A stretch of DNA of 64,000 nucleotides from Aequorivita xiaoshiensis (GTDB lineage Bacteria > Bacteroidota > Bacteroidia > Flavobacteriales > Flavobacteriaceae). Both the position numbers and the translations under genes were made by a program. Below are positions 32,439-40,219 of the stretch, one piece after another. The DNA is taken from NCBI RefSeq assembly GCF_022008395.1, contig NZ_JAIRBB010000002.1:124001-188000 (forward strand), given 5' to 3'. The stretch's first letter is position 1; the number at the start of each line of letters is the position of its first letter. Under the pieces are notes generated by a model. That model did no database searches. It was not told where the DNA came from and saw nothing but the letters and a program-made list of their open reading frames with translations.

Positions 32439-32542
32439 ATATTATATCCCAAGTATTCATTTATATTGTGTACTCAAATATAGCTCATATATTAATATTT
32501 TTACATAAAATATTAAGGGGTTGTCAAGTATTTATTTAAATT

Positions 32543-32579
32543 AAAAAAAGCACCCAAGAAGACTCCTAGATGCTTTTTG
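32543..32579 (-). terminator. Terminator of asnB
   Basis: On the minus strand AAAAAGCA pairs with TGCTTTTT around a 19-base insert that can partly pair, followed by a T run. Confidence 0.65.
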
Positions 32580-32598
32580 TTTCAATAACAAGTATATC

Positions 32599-34284
32599 CT
32601 AATACGCATCGTCATGAACGTTTGCAACGGCCCGACCGCTAGGGTCGTTCATGTTTTTAAAACTTTCGTCCCAATCCAGGGCTACTTGACTGCTACAAGC
32701 TACACTAGGCACGCTAGGCACCGTTAAAGCTGCGGCATCACTTGGATAATGACTTTCAAAAATGGTGCGATAGTAAAACTCTTCTTTGCTAGTAGGCGTT
32801 TGTATCGGGAAACGATAATGCGCATTTGCCATTTGCTCGTCTGTTACTTTATTATTTACCATTTCCTTTAAAGAGTCAATCCAACTATAACCTACACCGT
32901 CGCTAAATTGTTCTTTTTGTCGCCAAGCAACAGCTTCGGGTAACATATCGCCAAAAGCTTCGCGTAACACCCATTTTTCCATGGCTTGTTTATCATGAGA
33001 CCCTTTTTTACCAGCGATGATCATTTTGTCTTTAGGGTTTAGTCGCATAGCCACATCCATAAATTCTTTGTCTAAGAATGGCACTCGACCTTCGATTCCC
33101 CATGAAGCTAAAGATTTATTTGCACGTAAGCAGTCGTACATATGTAGTTTATCTAATTTACGCACGTTCTCCTCGTGAAAATCTTTGGCGGAAGGGGCTT
33201 TGTGAAAGTAGAGATATCCACCAAAAATCTCATCGGCTCCTTCGCCAGAAAGCACCATTTTTATTCCCATAGCCTTGATAGCACGCGCCAATAAAAACAT
33301 AGGGGTAGAGGCACGGATGGTAGTTATATCGTAGGTTTCTACGTGATAAATTACATCGCTGATGGCATCAAGCCCTTCTTGAATTGTAAAATTAATTTCG
33401 TGATGTACAGTTCCTAGATGATCGGCAACCAATTTTGCAGCAGCCAAGTCTGGGGAGCCTACTAGACCAACTGCAAATGAATGTAACCTTGGGTACCAAG
33501 CTCCTTCGGTATCGCCAGATTCTATACGTTTATCTGCATATTTTTTAGCTAGGGCAGAGGTGATGGAAGAGTCTAAGCCTCCAGAAAGTAATACGCCGTA
33601 AGGCACATCACTCATTAGCTGTCTTTTTACAGCAGCATCTAAGGCGTCGCGTAAATCGGCAATACTAGTTTCATTTTCTTGCACTGTATCAAACTCCATC
33701 CAGTCTCTTTTGTACCAACGCTTAATTTCACCCTCACGGCTATCTAAATAATGACCAGGAGGGAAGAGTTCAATTTTGGTACACGTACCTTCTAGGGCTT
33801 TTAATTCTGAAGCCACATAAAAGGTTCCGTTTTTATCCCATCCCATATACAGGGGAATGACGCCCATGTGATCGCGAGCAATAAAATAATTGTCATTTTC
33901 AATATCATATAGTGCAAAACCGAAAATGCCGTTCATATCATCAAGAAACGCTGCGCCTTTTTCTTTGTATAAAGGCAATATAACTTCACAATCACTTTTA
34001 GTTTGAAAGTCATAACCATTTAATTGCTTTCTCAATTCGGTATGATTATAGATTTCGCCATTTGCTGCCAAAACAAGGTTGCCATCACTGCTATAAAGCG
34101 GTTGTTTCCCTGATATAGGGTCTACAATAGCTAGACGTTCGTGAGCCATAATTGCTTTATCATTGGTAAATACGCCGCTCCAATCTGGTCCGCGATGACG
34201 AATAGTTTTTGCCATTGATAATATTTGAGGTCTAAGTGCCTCAGAGGGCTCTTTTAATTTGAATGCACATACAATTCCACACAT
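32599..34284 (-). CDS. asnB: Asparagine synthase B, glutamine-hydrolysing
   Basis: 561 residues. Cys2 (MCGIVCAF) is the glutaminase nucleophile after removal of Met1. The N-terminal domain has RHRGPDWSGV and LAANGEIYNH. The synthetase domain has the PP-loop GVLLSGGLDSSI (near 238) and VLSGEGADEIFGGY. It makes Asn from Asp, ATP and Gln. It is preceded by an Asn-rich leader peptide and a terminator, so expression is probably set by transcription attenuation (see the findings). Its own terminator lies at 32543-32579. Confidence 0.97.
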   Translation of the reverse strand: MCGIVCAFKLKEPSEALRPQILSMAKTIRHRGPDWSGVFTNDKAIMAHERLAIVDPISGKQPLYSSDGNLVLAANGEIYNHTELRKQLNGYDFQTKSDCEVILPLYKEKGAAFLDDMNGIFGFALYDIENDNYFIARDHMGVIPLYMGWDKNGTFYVASELKALEGTCTKIELFPPGHYLDSREGEIKRWYKRDWMEFDTVQENETSIADLRDALDAAVKRQLMSDVPYGVLLSGGLDSSITSALAKKYADKRIESGDTEGAWYPRLHSFAVGLVGSPDLAAAKLVADHLGTVHHEINFTIQEGLDAISDVIYHVETYDITTIRASTPMFLLARAIKAMGIKMVLSGEGADEIFGGYLYFHKAPSAKDFHEENVRKLDKLHMYDCLRANKSLASWGIEGRVPFLDKEFMDVAMRLNPKDKMIIAGKKGSHDKQAMEKWVLREAFGDMLPEAVAWRQKEQFSDGVGYSWIDSLKEMVNNKVTDEQMANAHYRFPIQTPTSKEEFYYRTIFESHYPSDAAALTVPSVPSVACSSQVALDWDESFKNMNDPSGRAVANVHDDAY

Positions 34285-34374
34285 AATTTAAATATTTGGT
34301 TAATAGTTGAGTTTCGTGATAAATAGTTTCGCTTTAATTTTTTTGCTTCCCGAGGAGTGGGGTGGGGTGGAGTC

Positions 34375-34410
34375 AAAAAAAAAGCCCGTCAGGTAAAAAA
34401 CCTGACGGGC
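34375..34410 (-). terminator. Attenuator terminator in the asnB leader
   Basis: On the minus strand GCCCGTCAGGT pairs with ACCTGACGGGC (11 bp, five-base loop) and is followed by nine T. It lies between the leader peptide and asnB, some 90 bases before the asnB ATG. It could instead be the terminator of the upstream dehydrogenase gene, but a promoter and a leader peptide lie between them. Confidence 0.85.
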
Positions 34411-34417
34411 CATATAT

Positions 34418-34446
34418 CGCGACAAGTTTTTGTTACGGCAGCTCGT
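34418..34446 (-). promoter_or_regulatory. Alternative-pairing segment of the asnB attenuator
   Basis: On RNA, ACUUGUCGCG (complement 34418-34427) can pair with CCCGUCAGGU (complement 34400-34409), eight of ten positions, forming an antiterminator. It can alternatively pair by CUUGU with ACGAG (complement 34442-34446), which lies at the last Asn codon and the Glu codon of the leader peptide. These give the 1:2, 2:3 and 3:4 alternatives of a classical attenuator. Confidence 0.55.
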
Positions 34447-34483
34447 TATTATTATTGTTATTATTTAAGCTAACTAGTGACAT
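34433..34483 (-). CDS. Asn-rich leader peptide of asnB
   Basis: 16 codons: MSLVSLNNNNNNNELP, then TAA. Residues 7-13 are seven consecutive Asn codons (AAT and AAC). The position is downstream of a promoter, upstream of a terminator and in front of asparagine synthetase. This fits a leader peptide whose translation senses Asn-tRNA(Asn) supply. It is far too short to have an enzyme function. The Asn run is the same amino acid that the next gene makes, which makes chance unlikely. Confidence 0.8.
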   Translation of the reverse strand: MSLVSLNNNNNNNELP

Positions 34484-34510
34484 AAACTTGTTTATTTAAT
34501 AATTATAATG

Positions 34511-34540
34511 CTAATGTATGATATTTTCTTTAAAAAACAA
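34511..34540 (-). promoter_or_regulatory. Promoter of the asnB leader
   Basis: On the minus strand TTG (34538-34540) and TACATTAG (34511-34518) are separated by 19 bases. The -7 box has one mismatch to TAnnTTTG. The predicted start near 34507 leaves about 24 bases before the leader ATG. Confidence 0.55.
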
Positions 34541-34592
34541 TATATCAATTGAATTAAATTAAAATTTAGGGGGATTTCCCTTTAATCTTAAA

Positions 34593-37007
34593 TTATCTCA
34601 ATTTTGGAAATTCGGTTGGATTTGCTTCATGCATAATGCTATACACTTTTTCATAAACATCTTCTACTGAAGGTTTAGAGAAGTAATCCCCATCGGTTCC
34701 ATAAGGAGGACGGTGGTCTTTCGCTGAAAGCGTTTGTGGCTTGCTATCCATATATCTATAACCTCCTTGTTCTTCAATAACTTGATTTAAGATGTATGCT
34801 GAAGCACCTCCTGGAACGTCTTCATCGATAACTAAGAGTCTGTTTGTTTTTGCAACACTCTTAACAATGTCGTGATTTATATCTAGCGGAAGTAATGACT
34901 GAACATCGATGATTTCAGCATTAATTCCTGCTTGAAGCAATTCTTTAGCTGCTTCTTCAACGATGCGTAGTGTACTTCCATAAGACACTAAGGTTATATC
35001 TGTACCTTCCTTAATGGTTTCTACAACTCCAATTGGTGTTTTAAGTTCACCAAGGTTGTTAGGCATTTTTTCCTTTAAACGATATCCATTTAAACACTCT
35101 ATTACCAATGCTGGTTCGTCTGTTTCTAGAAGGGTGTTGTAGAATCCTGCAGCCTTAGTCATATCTCTTGGTACTAAGATATACATTCCGCGTAATAAGT
35201 GAATTAAACCTGCCATTTGAGAGCCACTGTGCCAGATACCTTCTAATCTATGCCCTCGAGTTCTAACAATAAGTGGTGATTTTTGTTTACCATTTGTTCT
35301 GTAACGGGTGGTAACTAGATCGTCACTCATAATTTGCAGACAGTATAAAATGTAATCTAAATACTGAATTTCAGCAATAGGACGTAGGCCACGGAGTGAC
35401 ATTCCGATACCTTGACCTAAAATTGTAGCTTCGCGAATTCCTGCATCAGCAACCCTAAGTTTGCCGTACTTTTCTTGCATTCCTTCTAAACCTTGGTTTA
35501 CGTCTCCAATTTCCCCAGCATCTTCACCGAAAATTAGAACTTCTGGGTGTTTACTAAAAATAGCATCAAAGTTGTCACGTAAAATTACACGACCGTCAAC
35601 TTCTTCTGCATCTTCAGAATATGTAGCAGGCACTTCTTTTACTGTTTTAGCATTTTCCTCAGCTTCAGAGTAAAGGTGTGCACTGTATTTTGGTTGGATT
35701 ATTTCGAAGTAATTCGCAATCCAATCTTGTAATTGTTTCTTTTCAGGAGAATCTTCTTTTACAACATAACGCAATGCTTTACGAGCAGCGCCTAGTATGT
35801 CTTTACGCAATGGACTTTTATCAGCCTCTAATTCGTTTTTAATCTTCTCGATGAAGTTTTTATTTGCACTGTTTTCCGCTAGGTTTCCTAATAATAAAAC
35901 AGCTTCTTCTTGTTCTCTTTTTTGTGGATTTATAAAAGCATCCCAAGCCGCTTTCTTTCCATCGCGTACTTGTTTTTTAATATCTTTTTCAATCGCAGAA
36001 AGTTCATCGTCAGTGGCAATATCATTGGCGATCATCCATTCGCGCATTTTTAAATTACAATCATTTTTCGCTTCCCACTCTAGGCGTTCTTTACTTTTAT
36101 AACGCTCATGCGAGCCACTAGTACTGTGACCTTGAGGTTGTGTTAATTCTTGTACATGAATTAATACAGGTACGTGTTCTTCACGAGCTATTTTAGACGC
36201 ACGGTTGTAAACCTCTATAAGCTCTGGATAGTCCCAACCATTTACACGAATAATTTCATAACCCTTTTCAGTATCGGTACGCTGAAAACCTTTTAGTATT
36301 TCGGATATATTTTCTTTTGTAGTTTGATATTTTGCGTGAACGGAAATTCCGTATTCATCATCCCAAACACTCATTACCATTGGTACTTGTAAAACACCAG
36401 CAGCATTTATGGTTTCCCAAAAAAGACCTTCACTAGTACTTGCATTTCCAATAGTTCCCCAAGCTACTTCATTTCCATTTATAGAAAAGTTTGTTTTGTC
36501 TTCCAAACCTTCAACATTTCTGAAAATCTTTGAAGCTTGTGCTAAACCTAATAGGCGAGGCATTTGCCCAGCGGTAGGTGAAATATCTGCGCTACTATTC
36601 TTTTGTTCTGTTAGATTTTTCCAACTTCCATCTTCATTTAAACTATGCGTTGCAAAGTGTCCACCCATTTGTCTTCCACCACTCATTGGGTCTACAGTGA
36701 TATCGGTATGTGCGTAAAGCCCAGCAAAAAATTGCTGAATAGTTAATTCGCCAATAGCCATCATAAAGGTTTGATCGCGATAGTATCCACTGCGCCAATC
36801 TCCTTTTTGAAATGCTTTTGCCCAAGCAAGTTGAGGGACCTCTTTACCATCTCCAAAGATTCCGAATTTAGCTTTACCAGTAAGCACTTCTCGTCGGCCA
36901 AGTAAACTACATTCACGGCTAGTTACAGCAATTTTATAATCGTTTATAACTGTTTCTTTAAAATCTTCAAAAGAAATCTCTGTATTTGTCTTAGGATCTG
37001 TCTGCAT
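34593..37007 (-). CDS. Fused 2-oxoacid dehydrogenase E1 (alpha-beta), branched-chain type
   Basis: 804 residues from the ATG at 37007 (11 further upstream codons lack conserved character). Residues about 1-400 are the E1 alpha domain, with TPP-binding GTIGNASTSEGLFWETINAAG near 200. Residues about 460-804 are the E1 beta domain, with GEDAGEIGDVNQGLEGMQEKYG and RVADAGIREATILGQGIG. Fusion of alpha and beta in one chain is known in Bacteroidota. The enzyme decarboxylates a branched 2-oxoacid, such as those from Val, Leu and Ile, and passes the acyl group to an E2 not present here. Pyruvate cannot be excluded as substrate. Confidence 0.9.
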   Translation of the reverse strand: MQTDPKTNTEISFEDFKETVINDYKIAVTSRECSLLGRREVLTGKAKFGIFGDGKEVPQLAWAKAFQKGDWRSGYYRDQTFMMAIGELTIQQFFAGLYAHTDITVDPMSGGRQMGGHFATHSLNEDGSWKNLTEQKNSSADISPTAGQMPRLLGLAQASKIFRNVEGLEDKTNFSINGNEVAWGTIGNASTSEGLFWETINAAGVLQVPMVMSVWDDEYGISVHAKYQTTKENISEILKGFQRTDTEKGYEIIRVNGWDYPELIEVYNRASKIAREEHVPVLIHVQELTQPQGHSTSGSHERYKSKERLEWEAKNDCNLKMREWMIANDIATDDELSAIEKDIKKQVRDGKKAAWDAFINPQKREQEEAVLLLGNLAENSANKNFIEKIKNELEADKSPLRKDILGAARKALRYVVKEDSPEKKQLQDWIANYFEIIQPKYSAHLYSEAEENAKTVKEVPATYSEDAEEVDGRVILRDNFDAIFSKHPEVLIFGEDAGEIGDVNQGLEGMQEKYGKLRVADAGIREATILGQGIGMSLRGLRPIAEIQYLDYILYCLQIMSDDLVTTRYRTNGKQKSPLIVRTRGHRLEGIWHSGSQMAGLIHLLRGMYILVPRDMTKAAGFYNTLLETDEPALVIECLNGYRLKEKMPNNLGELKTPIGVVETIKEGTDITLVSYGSTLRIVEEAAKELLQAGINAEIIDVQSLLPLDINHDIVKSVAKTNRLLVIDEDVPGGASAYILNQVIEEQGGYRYMDSKPQTLSAKDHRPPYGTDGDYFSKPSVEDVYEKVYSIMHEANPTEFPKLR

Positions 37008-37105
37008 TTCAATAAATTTTAGGAATTGCAAAAGTAGCAAATTTAGGGTGGTTTTACAACGCCAATTTGCTTAGTAGAAGTTAATTAAAATAGCGGGTAA
37101 CTGGT

Positions 37106-37330
37106 TTATCCCTTTTTGGTCTTGAACCCCTTAACAATCAATAATCTAAAGAGTAGTACGAATGGAAAACCGTGAAACAATACATCAAACCAATCTGCAG
37201 CTTGCATCGCATTAGCTCCTCCTGCAATCCATTTTAATTTTCCCCAAAGATGTGGTTCGGGCATAAAAGGAGCTAAACCTAAAGTTAGACAAAGTAGAAT
37301 AATTATACGCCAGTTGTTTAGGAAATCCAT
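37106..37330 (-). CDS. Small conserved two-helix membrane protein
   Basis: 74 residues. Two hydrophobic segments (about 7-22 and 51-66) flank a polar loop with PFMPEPHLWGKLKW and ADWFDVLFHG. The sequence looks conserved but I do not recognise a function. It sits between the E1 fusion and the M1-like gene, with 98- and 75-base gaps. Confidence 0.65.
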   Translation of the reverse strand: MDFLNNWRIIILLCLTLGLAPFMPEPHLWGKLKWIAGGANAMQAADWFDVLFHGFPFVLLFRLLIVKGFKTKKG

Positions 37331-37405
37331 AGTATGAGGTTGTAATTTGTTAGTTCTTGATTGAAGAAATCTTATAGAATTTGTACTTATAAATATAAAC
37401 TTACT

Positions 37406-40219
37406 CTAATACCATTTTCTAGTAAACAGACCAAGTAGCGTTTGAGGGCTTAGGGTTACTATAAAACGAACCTTTTCGTCATAATGAGGGAGGTTGGGTT
37501 CAAATCCTAAACTTGAATAAAGCGGGAAGTAAAGTTCGAAATAATCTGCTACCAAACTCAATCTAATTCCACTATCAAAAACTGCAGTAGTACCGCTATG
37601 TGTATTGTGGACTAACCCCACATCGCCATAGGCATATATCCACTTCCAAATATTAGTACTTGCATTGGCTGTTACCATCCAACTATTTGCAAAAGCAGGT
37701 TCTAATTGTGATTTAAATCCCCCTTCTGCAATAACTAATTGTTGACTGAAAAGACCAGAATCTTCACTTCTTCCATAGTAATTATAATCAAATAAATAAT
37801 CACTAGGACGATCTAAGGCGAAACTGAAAAAATCTTCATTTTCACGCGTATCGTTGAAAAGAAATACTCCTGCAAAAAAGCGTAAATTTAATTGTCGGTT
37901 GCTTAGAAATAACTTTCTATACTCTAAGTTTGCTGATAGCTTACTAAATTTAGACGAAATTTCATAGTCCACTACAGACCTGAAATAATTAATTAGGTTT
38001 GGATTTGAATATACGTACTGAATATTATAAACACTGTAATTTGGCTCTTGATCGGGATCATTAGGGTCTTTGTCCTTATAAACGTTTATGTTTCTAAGAT
38101 TGATAAATTGCTTTTCATTATCTCTTAAATCATCATTTCTGAATGAGAAAGTGATATAGGGTGTAAATTTTTTATAGAATAAACCACGATTGTAGGAGTA
38201 ATAATTTCCTGAAAAACCATATCGCATTTTGTAAAGCTTGTCTTCATCTAAATATTGAATATAACTAACAGATGCACCTCCTACTAATTTCTTAGAGCGA
38301 AAACCATATTGGGGTTCAAAACTAAAGTGAACTGGCTTAGGAAGCACGGTTTTGTTATACAGTCGGATACCTGCAGATACCCCGTCGTACAAATTATACT
38401 CGAATATTGGCATAAAGAAAAACTGGGTGAAGCTAGGATCTTCTACATCCTGAAAAAGCCTAAATTGAATAGGCTTATTTAATAACCCATCTACCGTTTT
38501 ATAATTGTTTCGACGATTATACTCAGGAATTTCACCTTTGTGATTAAGAACTAACTTTTTAATATTTTTAGATGGAATCGTAATTATGCCTATGCTGTCA
38601 ATTGGTTTGGTCCAAGTTTTATAAACAACATCGTCATCATTTAAGCCGTATAAACTAACGGGGAGTTTAGATTTTCTATTGTTTTTTATGGAAACTATAA
38701 GAGAATCGCCTTGTTTTTGAACTTTCTTAATTTTGAAATCTATAGTTTTTCGAGTGTTTGCAAAATCCTCAAAAAACCAATTAATAGGTAGGTCAGTTTT
38801 TTCAGATAGAAAAGTTTCAAAATCTGAAGTTTTTACCGGTTTTAATCTATTTTGAGTGTAGAATTCCTTGAAGCTTTCACTAAGTACAATATCTCCTAAA
38901 TAATCATTTAAATATTTCAAACCACTACCACCGTAATAGCCATTGGCAATATTCATATTAAATTTCAACAACGAATCTTTTGAAATTGTTAATGGTTGTT
39001 GAATATTATTACGAGCCATATTCAGATAGAGTAGTGGGTACTGATCATTAAACTCAAGGTTTGCTGCATGTGCCCAACGTATTACCCACCAATTACTTAA
39101 ACTTCCAATTATTTTCATATTAGGGTAGTAAGTGTCTACATACTCCATCATTAGATAAATCTGCAAGGCATCCTGCAGCCAATAATCTTCTCTAGGATTG
39201 AAAATTAAAGTGTTGTCTATATAGTGACGGGTAATAGTTTTAAGATGTTCCATATCGTATTCAAAACCATCGGGGAACGGGCTGATAAAACTTGGAAGTT
39301 GGTTTAAACCGTAAACGGGATTTGTTTTGTAATCTGTCTCACTAACTACTATTTTTTTAAAAGGATAAGGCCCAAGTTTATTATGTAAAAATTGAGCGAC
39401 TCTATCGATTACTAAGGCTTGAACAGGAGGGTTTACACGGCTGTTTTTAATATTTGTAACAATGCTAACTTTATCGGTTTCAATTGTTGTAAAACTTGGG
39501 TTTTTTTCAATGTATAAAACAGCGCTGTTGCGATCTACCCCTTCTAAATGAATAGTTTTTTCTTTAGTGGATAGGGTTTTAATTTCGACGTTTAAATCTG
39601 AAGTTACATTATATATCCTTGGAATGTTTAAGTTTATAGATATATGAGATGGAGTTAAGTATAAATCATCTGTGTTTTTATTGCTATAAACTTGCCATTC
39701 TCCATCGTAAACAGCAGGGGAAATGTACCAGTACCGCAGTTTGAAATTATTGTTTTTGTCTACTCCATATCGCGTAAACTTATCGTCTGGCACTTTTACA
39801 GTATACGCTATATTGAAAGTATAATTATCACCTGGATCAAGAGGTTTGTCAGGAATAATTCTTAATATATCTACTGCTTTATCACGTTGCCATTGTAGCG
39901 GAACAACCGAGTTGTTGTAGATTTTGTGAATATCTGTTTTTCCTCGATTTTCTTTTTTCTCGAAGTGAAAGGCACTCTCATAATTGTCGGCAAAACGTTT
40001 ACCTAGCGGTGTTGTTTTTGCAGAAAAACTATTCGCCCAATCGAAAAAGTAAATTTCATTTAATGTATCCTTAGAAGTATTATGATACGTTATCTTCTGT
40101 TCAATCGAAATCGTTTTGTTAGAAGGGTTTAGCGTGGCATTAATGTTAATAGTATGCTGTGCCATTGCTTGAATAGTCAAGCAAAAGAAAATACAGTATA
40201 AAATACTTCTTGCTATCAA
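37406..40219 (-). CDS. M1-like pseudopeptidase with C-terminal outer membrane beta-barrel
   Basis: 937 residues with a signal peptide (about 1-20). Residues about 25-450 follow the M1 (gluzincin) fold, with an N-terminal beta domain and a helical catalytic domain. The active site is degraded: HExxH is T-I-T-R-H (328-332), the third ligand Glu is Asp350 and GAMEN is replaced by YGLNQ (303-307). Residues about 575-937 look like an amphipathic outer-membrane barrel ending in a terminal aromatic residue (RKWY). It is probably an export or binding protein derived from an aminopeptidase. The barrel boundary is an estimate. Confidence 0.75.
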   Translation of the reverse strand: MIARSILYCIFFCLTIQAMAQHTININATLNPSNKTISIEQKITYHNTSKDTLNEIYFFDWANSFSAKTTPLGKRFADNYESAFHFEKKENRGKTDIHKIYNNSVVPLQWQRDKAVDILRIIPDKPLDPGDNYTFNIAYTVKVPDDKFTRYGVDKNNNFKLRYWYISPAVYDGEWQVYSNKNTDDLYLTPSHISINLNIPRIYNVTSDLNVEIKTLSTKEKTIHLEGVDRNSAVLYIEKNPSFTTIETDKVSIVTNIKNSRVNPPVQALVIDRVAQFLHNKLGPYPFKKIVVSETDYKTNPVYGLNQLPSFISPFPDGFEYDMEHLKTITRHYIDNTLIFNPREDYWLQDALQIYLMMEYVDTYYPNMKIIGSLSNWWVIRWAHAANLEFNDQYPLLYLNMARNNIQQPLTISKDSLLKFNMNIANGYYGGSGLKYLNDYLGDIVLSESFKEFYTQNRLKPVKTSDFETFLSEKTDLPINWFFEDFANTRKTIDFKIKKVQKQGDSLIVSIKNNRKSKLPVSLYGLNDDDVVYKTWTKPIDSIGIITIPSKNIKKLVLNHKGEIPEYNRRNNYKTVDGLLNKPIQFRLFQDVEDPSFTQFFFMPIFEYNLYDGVSAGIRLYNKTVLPKPVHFSFEPQYGFRSKKLVGGASVSYIQYLDEDKLYKMRYGFSGNYYSYNRGLFYKKFTPYITFSFRNDDLRDNEKQFINLRNINVYKDKDPNDPDQEPNYSVYNIQYVYSNPNLINYFRSVVDYEISSKFSKLSANLEYRKLFLSNRQLNLRFFAGVFLFNDTRENEDFFSFALDRPSDYLFDYNYYGRSEDSGLFSQQLVIAEGGFKSQLEPAFANSWMVTANASTNIWKWIYAYGDVGLVHNTHSGTTAVFDSGIRLSLVADYFELYFPLYSSLGFEPNLPHYDEKVRFIVTLSPQTLLGLFTRKWY

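Follow-up and report, generated by a model that had tools for sequence, protein, structure and literature searches.

Leader-peptide attenuators of the trp, his, leu, thr, ilv and pheA systems are known from Proteobacteria. In these systems, a short ORF is rich in codons for the amino acid produced, placed a few codons ahead of the stop, an antiterminator formed by regions 2 and 3 stands against a terminator formed by regions 3 and 4, and the whole arrangement precedes a gene that makes the amino acid. The leader described here upstream of asnB resembles them in all of these respects. It differs from them in that it would sense Asn on behalf of an asparagine synthetase and has a promoter of Bacteroidota type; moreover, its region 2 begins 3 nt past the stop codon and its region 1 precedes the start codon, whereas theirs overlaps the control codons.

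In Firmicutes, the same signal (tRNA charging) and the same outcome (terminator readthrough) are found in T-boxes, some of which act on asnS (PMC2494555). Unlike these, the asnB leader has no T-box match and its proposed sensor is the translating ribosome: the T-box covariance model of Rfam gave no match in positions 32500–37500 of the window (E up to 1), the window being the whole stretch of 64,000 nt that was analysed, nor in 12 related loci (gathering score), and the known Rfam leader-peptide families gave no match at the gathering score in the same interval and the same 12 loci. Closer to our case, strong clues for leader-peptide attenuation upstream of amino-acid operons have been reported for Flavobacterium psychrophilum, a member of the same bacterial family, and the mechanism proposed there is of the same kind; asparagine, however, is unmentioned in the main text of that report, supplementary tables aside (PMC9723704). 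In the portions covered of the literature searched, which was mostly open-access (PMC9723704, PMC7366714, PMC2965389, PMC4833913 and PMC2494555), no leader-peptide attenuator for Asn is described; that literature does not extend to the survey of attenuators by Lopatovskaya et al. 2010, which is cited in PMC4833913.

The asnB leader and its proposed mechanism

The gene proposed as controlled, asnB, encodes a glutamine-hydrolysing asparagine synthetase on the minus strand of the window (32599..34284). Its product is asparagine synthase B according to NF006949 (898.8 bits, cut-off 499), is also matched by TIGR01536, and has its closest named relatives in Aequorivita species (88–89% identity). On the same strand as asnB, a gene for an E1 dehydrogenase lies upstream (34593–37040). 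Between these two genes, and again on the minus strand, a candidate leader promoter of Bacteroidota type (34511..34540) consists of TTG (34538–34540) and TACATTAG (34511–34518) with 19 nt spacing, which can be compared with the Bacteroidota consensus TTTG/TANNTTTG (PMC6847099); the same source describes Shine-Dalgarno sequences as absent. The promoter is followed by region 1, ACAAGUUU (34484..34491), located immediately 5' of the leader start codon and able to form 8 bp with region 2, and then by the leader ORF itself, whose 16 codons read MSLVSLNNNNNNNELP* (34433..34483). Region 2, AAACUUGU (34422..34429), begins 3 nt past the stop codon, and a putative, weak small hairpin, CGUAACAA/UUGUCGCG (34418..34437), can form at the stop codon itself. 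Region 3, GCCCGUCAGGUUU (34398..34410), corresponds to the terminator 5' arm plus the start of its loop, and its CAGGUUU pairs with region 2. Together with region 4 it forms an intrinsic terminator, GCCCGTCAGGT/ACCTGACGGGC, of 11 bp followed by nine T/U (34375..34410), which by its sequence stands between the leader ORF and the gene. The Asn-run ORF, the terminator and the promoter are all found at the coordinates that the earlier note on this DNA had given, and the pairing it had drawn between 34418–34427 and 34400–34409 does comprise eight of ten bases.

The 121-nt leader of the window is predicted to fold at -37.5 kcal/mol, compared with -19.6 ± 3.2 kcal/mol for dinucleotide shuffles (z -5.64; 0/200 as low). 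The two main helices of this minimum-energy fold are ACAAGUUU:AAACUUGU, which closes the whole ORF, and the terminator.

We conclude that the asnB leader is very probably a ribosome-mediated transcription attenuator reading the supply of charged tRNA(Asn). Transcription would start some 20–30 nt upstream of the leader ORF. With Asn-tRNA in ample supply, the ribosome would reach the stop codon and its front edge would cover region 2, because this region begins only 3 nt further on; region 3 would then pair with region 4, and transcription would terminate before asnB. Under a shortage of Asn-tRNA, the ribosome would halt in the Asn run, at least 3 codons short of the stop, and region 2 would remain free to pair with region 3 (AAACUUG with CARGUUU), in which case no terminator would form and asnB would be transcribed. 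The default state of an untranslated leader would be strong in the window, and not in every leader. Given that an AsnRS is encoded in the genome of the window (589.7 bits, cut-off 342.6), tRNA(Asn) charging can report free Asn.

Conservation and predicted folding of the asnB leaders

Comparison was based on 132 asnB upstream stretches, namely 77 named loci, 14 stretches from genome searches, 40 fetched by place and the window; some of them are copies of one another. The named loci were originally 80, from which L058, L079 and L081 were dropped for having too little upstream sequence. A leader is present in 66 of the 132 stretches, and 55 of these leaders are distinct, 51 being recognized by script and 4 by eye (L008, L118, L093 and L096).

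An Asn-rich translatable ORF precedes the Asn-making gene in all of the 55 distinct leaders. Counting the stop codon as -1, Asn is encoded at codon -5, four codons before the stop, in 55/55 leaders, at codons -6 and -7 in 53/55 each, and at codon -8 in 48/55. Leader length ranges from 11 to 19 codons with the frame kept, and Asn makes up 45% of the residues past the start codon. The spacings are nearly fixed as well: the end of the last Asn run is 3 codons from the stop in 53/55 leaders, and the stop is 3 nt from the start of region 2, likewise in 53/55. Runs of at least four Asn occur in 48/55 leaders, compared with short ORFs in the 300 nt upstream of 2/337 control ORFs from the same loci, and both of these control-ORF peptides are asnB leaders themselves (those of L008 and L022). 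The codons of the run mix AAT and AAC, and the differences between leaders of the same length, counted over pairs that are not independent, fall mostly on the third position (267), with 101 on the second and 35 on the first. In some lineages the run is broken, while the peptide stays Asn-rich, as illustrated by MFLNKNSNYQP, MFTNNLNTNYKP and MLRSNNFNTNNSNNGKP. The N-terminal residues and the tail are variable, the latter being ELP, GNP, VLP, QLP, GTP, AKT or others. The final leader codon is of the form NCN in 55/55 leaders (CCG, ACG, CCT, ACT, ACC or CCC), which may owe more to base pairing in the vicinity of the stop codon than to the peptide.

The terminator is conserved as a structure. Its cells are paired in 98.0% of cases over the 55 leaders and 57 cells are changed on both sides, values that 0/500 shuffles reached in either case; such both-side changes concern 6 of the 11 terminator pairs (18/500 shuffles as high). 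This covariation demonstrates a terminator, not attenuation. As for the antiterminator, all 7 pairs of the 2:3 core (AAACUUG with CARGUUU) are kept in 54/55 leaders and six in the remaining one, and the mean duplex energy over the 55 leaders is -10.0 kcal/mol, a value as low being obtained in 203/11000 shuffles. The 2:3 helix showed no compensatory change in the 55 asnB leaders and did not exceed column shuffles; being nearly invariant, it leaves no covariation to be seen. Thus, of the compensatory changes that the earlier note had suggested looking for in the stems, those of the terminator were found and those of the 2:3 helix were not, so that the case for the latter within the asnB leaders is one of conservation and complementarity. 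Since the 2:3 complementarity is conserved and the terminator covaries, the region 3 arm retains both of its partners; in other words, an exclusive antiterminator sharing the terminator 5' arm is found in silico, conserved and non-covarying.

Region 1 required a revision. The earlier note had placed it at ACGAG (the AAC-GAG of the ELP tail), pairing with CUUGU; this candidate was rejected as a general element, being confined to the ELP subtype (13/55 leaders). The commoner candidate is the ACAAGUUU-like sequence just 5' of the leader start codon. A CAAG at most 14 nt upstream of the start occurs in 41/55 leaders versus 11/337 control starts, and pairing of at least 6 bp between region 1 and region 2 in 40/55 leaders versus 9/337 control starts, the controls being unrefined ATGs in both comparisons. 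In L120, both partners are altered together, the start codon being preceded by ACAAGCUG and the stop followed by AAAGCUUGU. The hairpin at the stop codon reaches -3.4 kcal/mol in the commonest type, and re-dealt 3' halves were as good in 28/5000 cases, a figure that ignores relatedness; this hairpin is possible and may add to the effect of region 1.

The effect of ribosome position was then modelled with the ribosome as a block that leaves the RNA free from a point 13 nt downstream of the first A-site nucleotide. With the ribosome stalled on Asn codons, the probability of 2:3 pairing before region 4 emerges is 0.95–0.99 (means over the 55 leaders). With the ribosome at the stop codon it is 0.00 over the 55 leaders, a value largely set by the assumed footprint and the conserved spacing. 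Without a ribosome, 2:3 pairing is 0.05 in the window versus a mean of 0.64 over the 55 leaders, which indicates that the region 1 default is lineage-dependent. Thus, in the folding model, the untranslated state favours termination in the window; in many leaders the untranslated default (regions 1 and 2) is predicted to be weak, and 2:3 pairing still wins there. In the model, the contrast between a ribosome on the Asn codons, with region 2 free, and one at the stop codon, with region 2 covered, outweighs the masking of region 1. The earlier note's proposal that stalling would favour 2:3 pairing agrees with this, and the route it had chosen, through masking of region 1, counts for less than the position of the ribosome.

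Distribution of the leader and rival explanations

Half of the stretches (66/132) contained no leader by script, by eye (about 20 printed) or with R1, a covariance model made from the 55 distinct leaders; the best R1 match in these leaderless asnB loci has an E-value of 0.73 (L067). They comprise 52/77 named loci, 14/40 stretches fetched by place, 0/14 from genome searches and 0/1 for the window. It follows that this mode of regulation does not extend to asnB in much of the family. Because the 40 stretches fetched by place favour close relatives, the counts obtained with R1 are the fairer figures. Within the genus, R1 matches at E 6.4e-16 or better were found in 23/28 genomes; this asnB occurs in the same 23 genomes and in none of the other five. 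The earlier note had proposed checking relatives for the Asn-run ORF and terminator, and the same leader does precede asnB in 23/23 genus genomes having the gene. G005, G013, G018, G025 and G026 have neither a close asnB nor a strong leader match, G018 being 69% complete.

In Flavobacteriaceae, R1 matches below 1e-5 were found in 40/397 sampled genomes and in 25/237 genera (stricter filters). The N-terminus of AsnB could be read downstream in 33 of these 40 matches and asnB is adjacent by coordinates in 5 more, the neighbouring gene of the remaining 2 (G312 and G384) not being included in the tally. A search of the order (346 genomes) yielded three genomes with an R1 match below 1e-5, each belonging to Flavobacteriaceae. 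In an AsnB tree of 78 proteins, one change splits the 26 that have the leader from the 52 that do not (support 95/85; midpoint root), so that one gain and no loss of the leader would be the simplest history in this sample. Leaders before other genes were sought among weaker matches and rejected: 16 of the 17 weak R1 matches fetched (E 4e-5 to 0.0054) resemble plain terminators without an Asn-run ORF, including L191 (E 0.0039), the sole other R1 match in the genome of the window; the remaining one, L184 (E 8.6e-4), led to asnA. As a separate observation, short palindrome-like inserts (CATCCCCCTTGCCCCCTTCAAAGGGGGAA and similar) lengthen the spacer between attenuator and asnB in L007, L012, L104 and L105.

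Could the hairpin serve merely to end transcription of the E1 dehydrogenase gene upstream, with the Asn run having arisen by chance as an AAT repeat in a spacer rich in A and T? The upstream gene is indeed on the same strand, no other terminator was seen between E1 and asnB, and AAT repeats can expand easily in AT-rich DNA. We nevertheless consider this explanation very improbable. A -7-like box is present between positions -26 and -41 relative to the leader start in 54/55 leaders versus 256/2200 random windows of the same stretches, for a box pattern selected post hoc, and in 54/55 loci this promoter-like box separates the leader ORF from the upstream gene. Moreover, the E1 homologue ends at most 180 nt from the leader in 28/55 loci, lies 536–787 nt off in 13, and was not found in 14/55 within the stretch searched (<1 kb); given this inconstant neighbour, it is asnB that the element accompanies. 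Region 2 would be superfluous to a plain terminator and is nonetheless almost invariant, and a chance repeat fits poorly with the mixture of AAT and AAC and with the broken-run leaders, which hold their Asn codons at fixed distances from the stop and from region 2.

The strong conservation of the ORF codons would also suit an Asn-rich peptide that is itself the product, acting as a small protein in trans next to an unrelated terminator, and a trans-acting leader peptide has been described for peTrpL (PMC7298713); what is fixed here, however, is the Asn codons, the spacing and the RNA complementarity, whereas the N-terminus and the tail vary, and we give this explanation hardly any credence. 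Nor do we give more to direct sensing of free Asn or tRNA(Asn) by the RNA, in the manner of a riboswitch or T-box with the ORF incidental. Although uncharged tRNA is the signal of T-boxes, which control asnS in a few species (PMC2494555), the same source counts 0 T-boxes in 7 Bacteroidetes/Chlorobi genomes, no Rfam family reached the gathering score in the 12 related loci, one tRNA excepted, and positions 32500–37500 of the window yielded sub-threshold Rfam matches only. Direct sensing also gives no role to Asn codons whose frame is preserved.

Asn-sensing leader-peptide attenuation thus stands as the best reading of the locus. The sequence establishes the elements as well as how they are spaced and conserved, their complementarity and their history, and from these we infer the response to Asn, termination in the cell and stalling of the ribosome. 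Attenuation is supported by the conservation of the Asn codons with mainly third-position drift and by the fixed spacing between Asn run, stop codon and region 2, as well as by the conserved 2:3 complementarity, the covarying terminator, the co-occurrence with asnB in the genus and the Asn leaders of asnA presented below. Overall, the earlier note's proposal of leader-peptide attenuation of asnB is supported by most of the comparative tests.

Asn-rich leaders upstream of asnA

AsnA uses ammonia, and asnA (PF03590) and asnB (PF00733) belong to separate Pfam families. Forty asnA genes were read over about 300–450 nt upstream each. An Asn-rich leader with a terminator precedes 18 of them, in other Bacteroidota, and in 14/40 there are two leader/terminator units in series (L204, L205, L207, L219, L221 and L222–L230). 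No such leader was found in that upstream length for 22/40 genes, a count in which L213 (partial match) and L237 are both tallied as leaderless, their asnA start being unsettled. In one genus, 10/10 asnA genes carry the tandem form, and asnA itself is present in 10/12 of its genomes.

The asnA leaders resemble those of asnB in that Asn codons are followed by a region 2 pairing with the terminator arm. They differ in that the sequences are unlike, region 2 is either internal to the ORF or located at its end, and two units often occur in series. First leaders from four families of the class resemble one another, as illustrated by MTQNLNNNFFNNSNNNLFGNGKIMF (L219), MSFFSNNFFLNNSNNNNLFRDRKAIVQK (L240) and VILNNNNNNFNNNLNQLRLRKAIIV (L223). 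Pairing of region 2 with the terminator arm is predicted at -9 to -18 kcal/mol in 17/18 loci, the exception being L206, which bears only a second-kind leader; for the first leaders of these 17 loci, 0 to 12 of 300 single-base shuffles were as low. In 16/17 first leaders, region 2 sits 3–15 nt past the last Asn codon. Moreover, region 2 tracks the arm between genera: GGAAGGCU is found with AGCCUUUCC, GGAAGAUU with AGUCUUCC and UCGAGAAGCUU with AGCCUUCUCGA.

Among leaders of the second kind, 2:3 pairing is supported in the second leaders of L205, L221 and L230 and in the leader of L206 (1 to 4/300 shuffles). The second leaders of genus g8 have a clear terminator, but their 2:3 energy does not stand out clearly against single-base shuffles of the GC-rich stretch (18 to 137/300 as low), and the same holds for the 2:3 energy of the second leader of L219 (139/300 single-base shuffles). 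Several second leaders have no stop codon before asnA, or their ORF crosses the terminator. In L204, L207 and L222–L229, the Asn run of the second leader gives way to Pro codons (PPP, in most cases with Gly next), several of these again without a stop before asnA; a polyproline pause may add to stalling in the second leaders, or the stretch may act as RNA only.

Given that the leader sequences of asnA and asnB are dissimilar, we infer an independent origin. Taken as a whole, a broader picture seems to us reasonably likely, in which Asn attenuation would have evolved at least twice independently in Bacteroidota, for AsnB and for AsnA, the upstream anti-antiterminator of asnB would couple leader initiation to termination, and the tandem arrangement of asnA would act as a two-step gate. 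The logic is classical, and the differences concern which amino acid is sensed, where region 1 is located and the occurrence of tandem leaders before asnA.

Since the 55 leaders vary in the number of Asn codons, in the breaks of the run and in the strength of region 1 around nearly fixed spacings, they constitute a natural series in which to test how an attenuator is set by the number of codons and the position of the ribosome. Where asnA has tandem leaders, these would likewise provide a natural two-stage attenuator for comparison with the one-stage form. If our reading is true, asparagine would have to be counted among the amino acids to which leader peptides respond, and there would be an explanation of how asparagine synthesis is adjusted to the charging of tRNA(Asn) in bacteria that apparently lack T-boxes.
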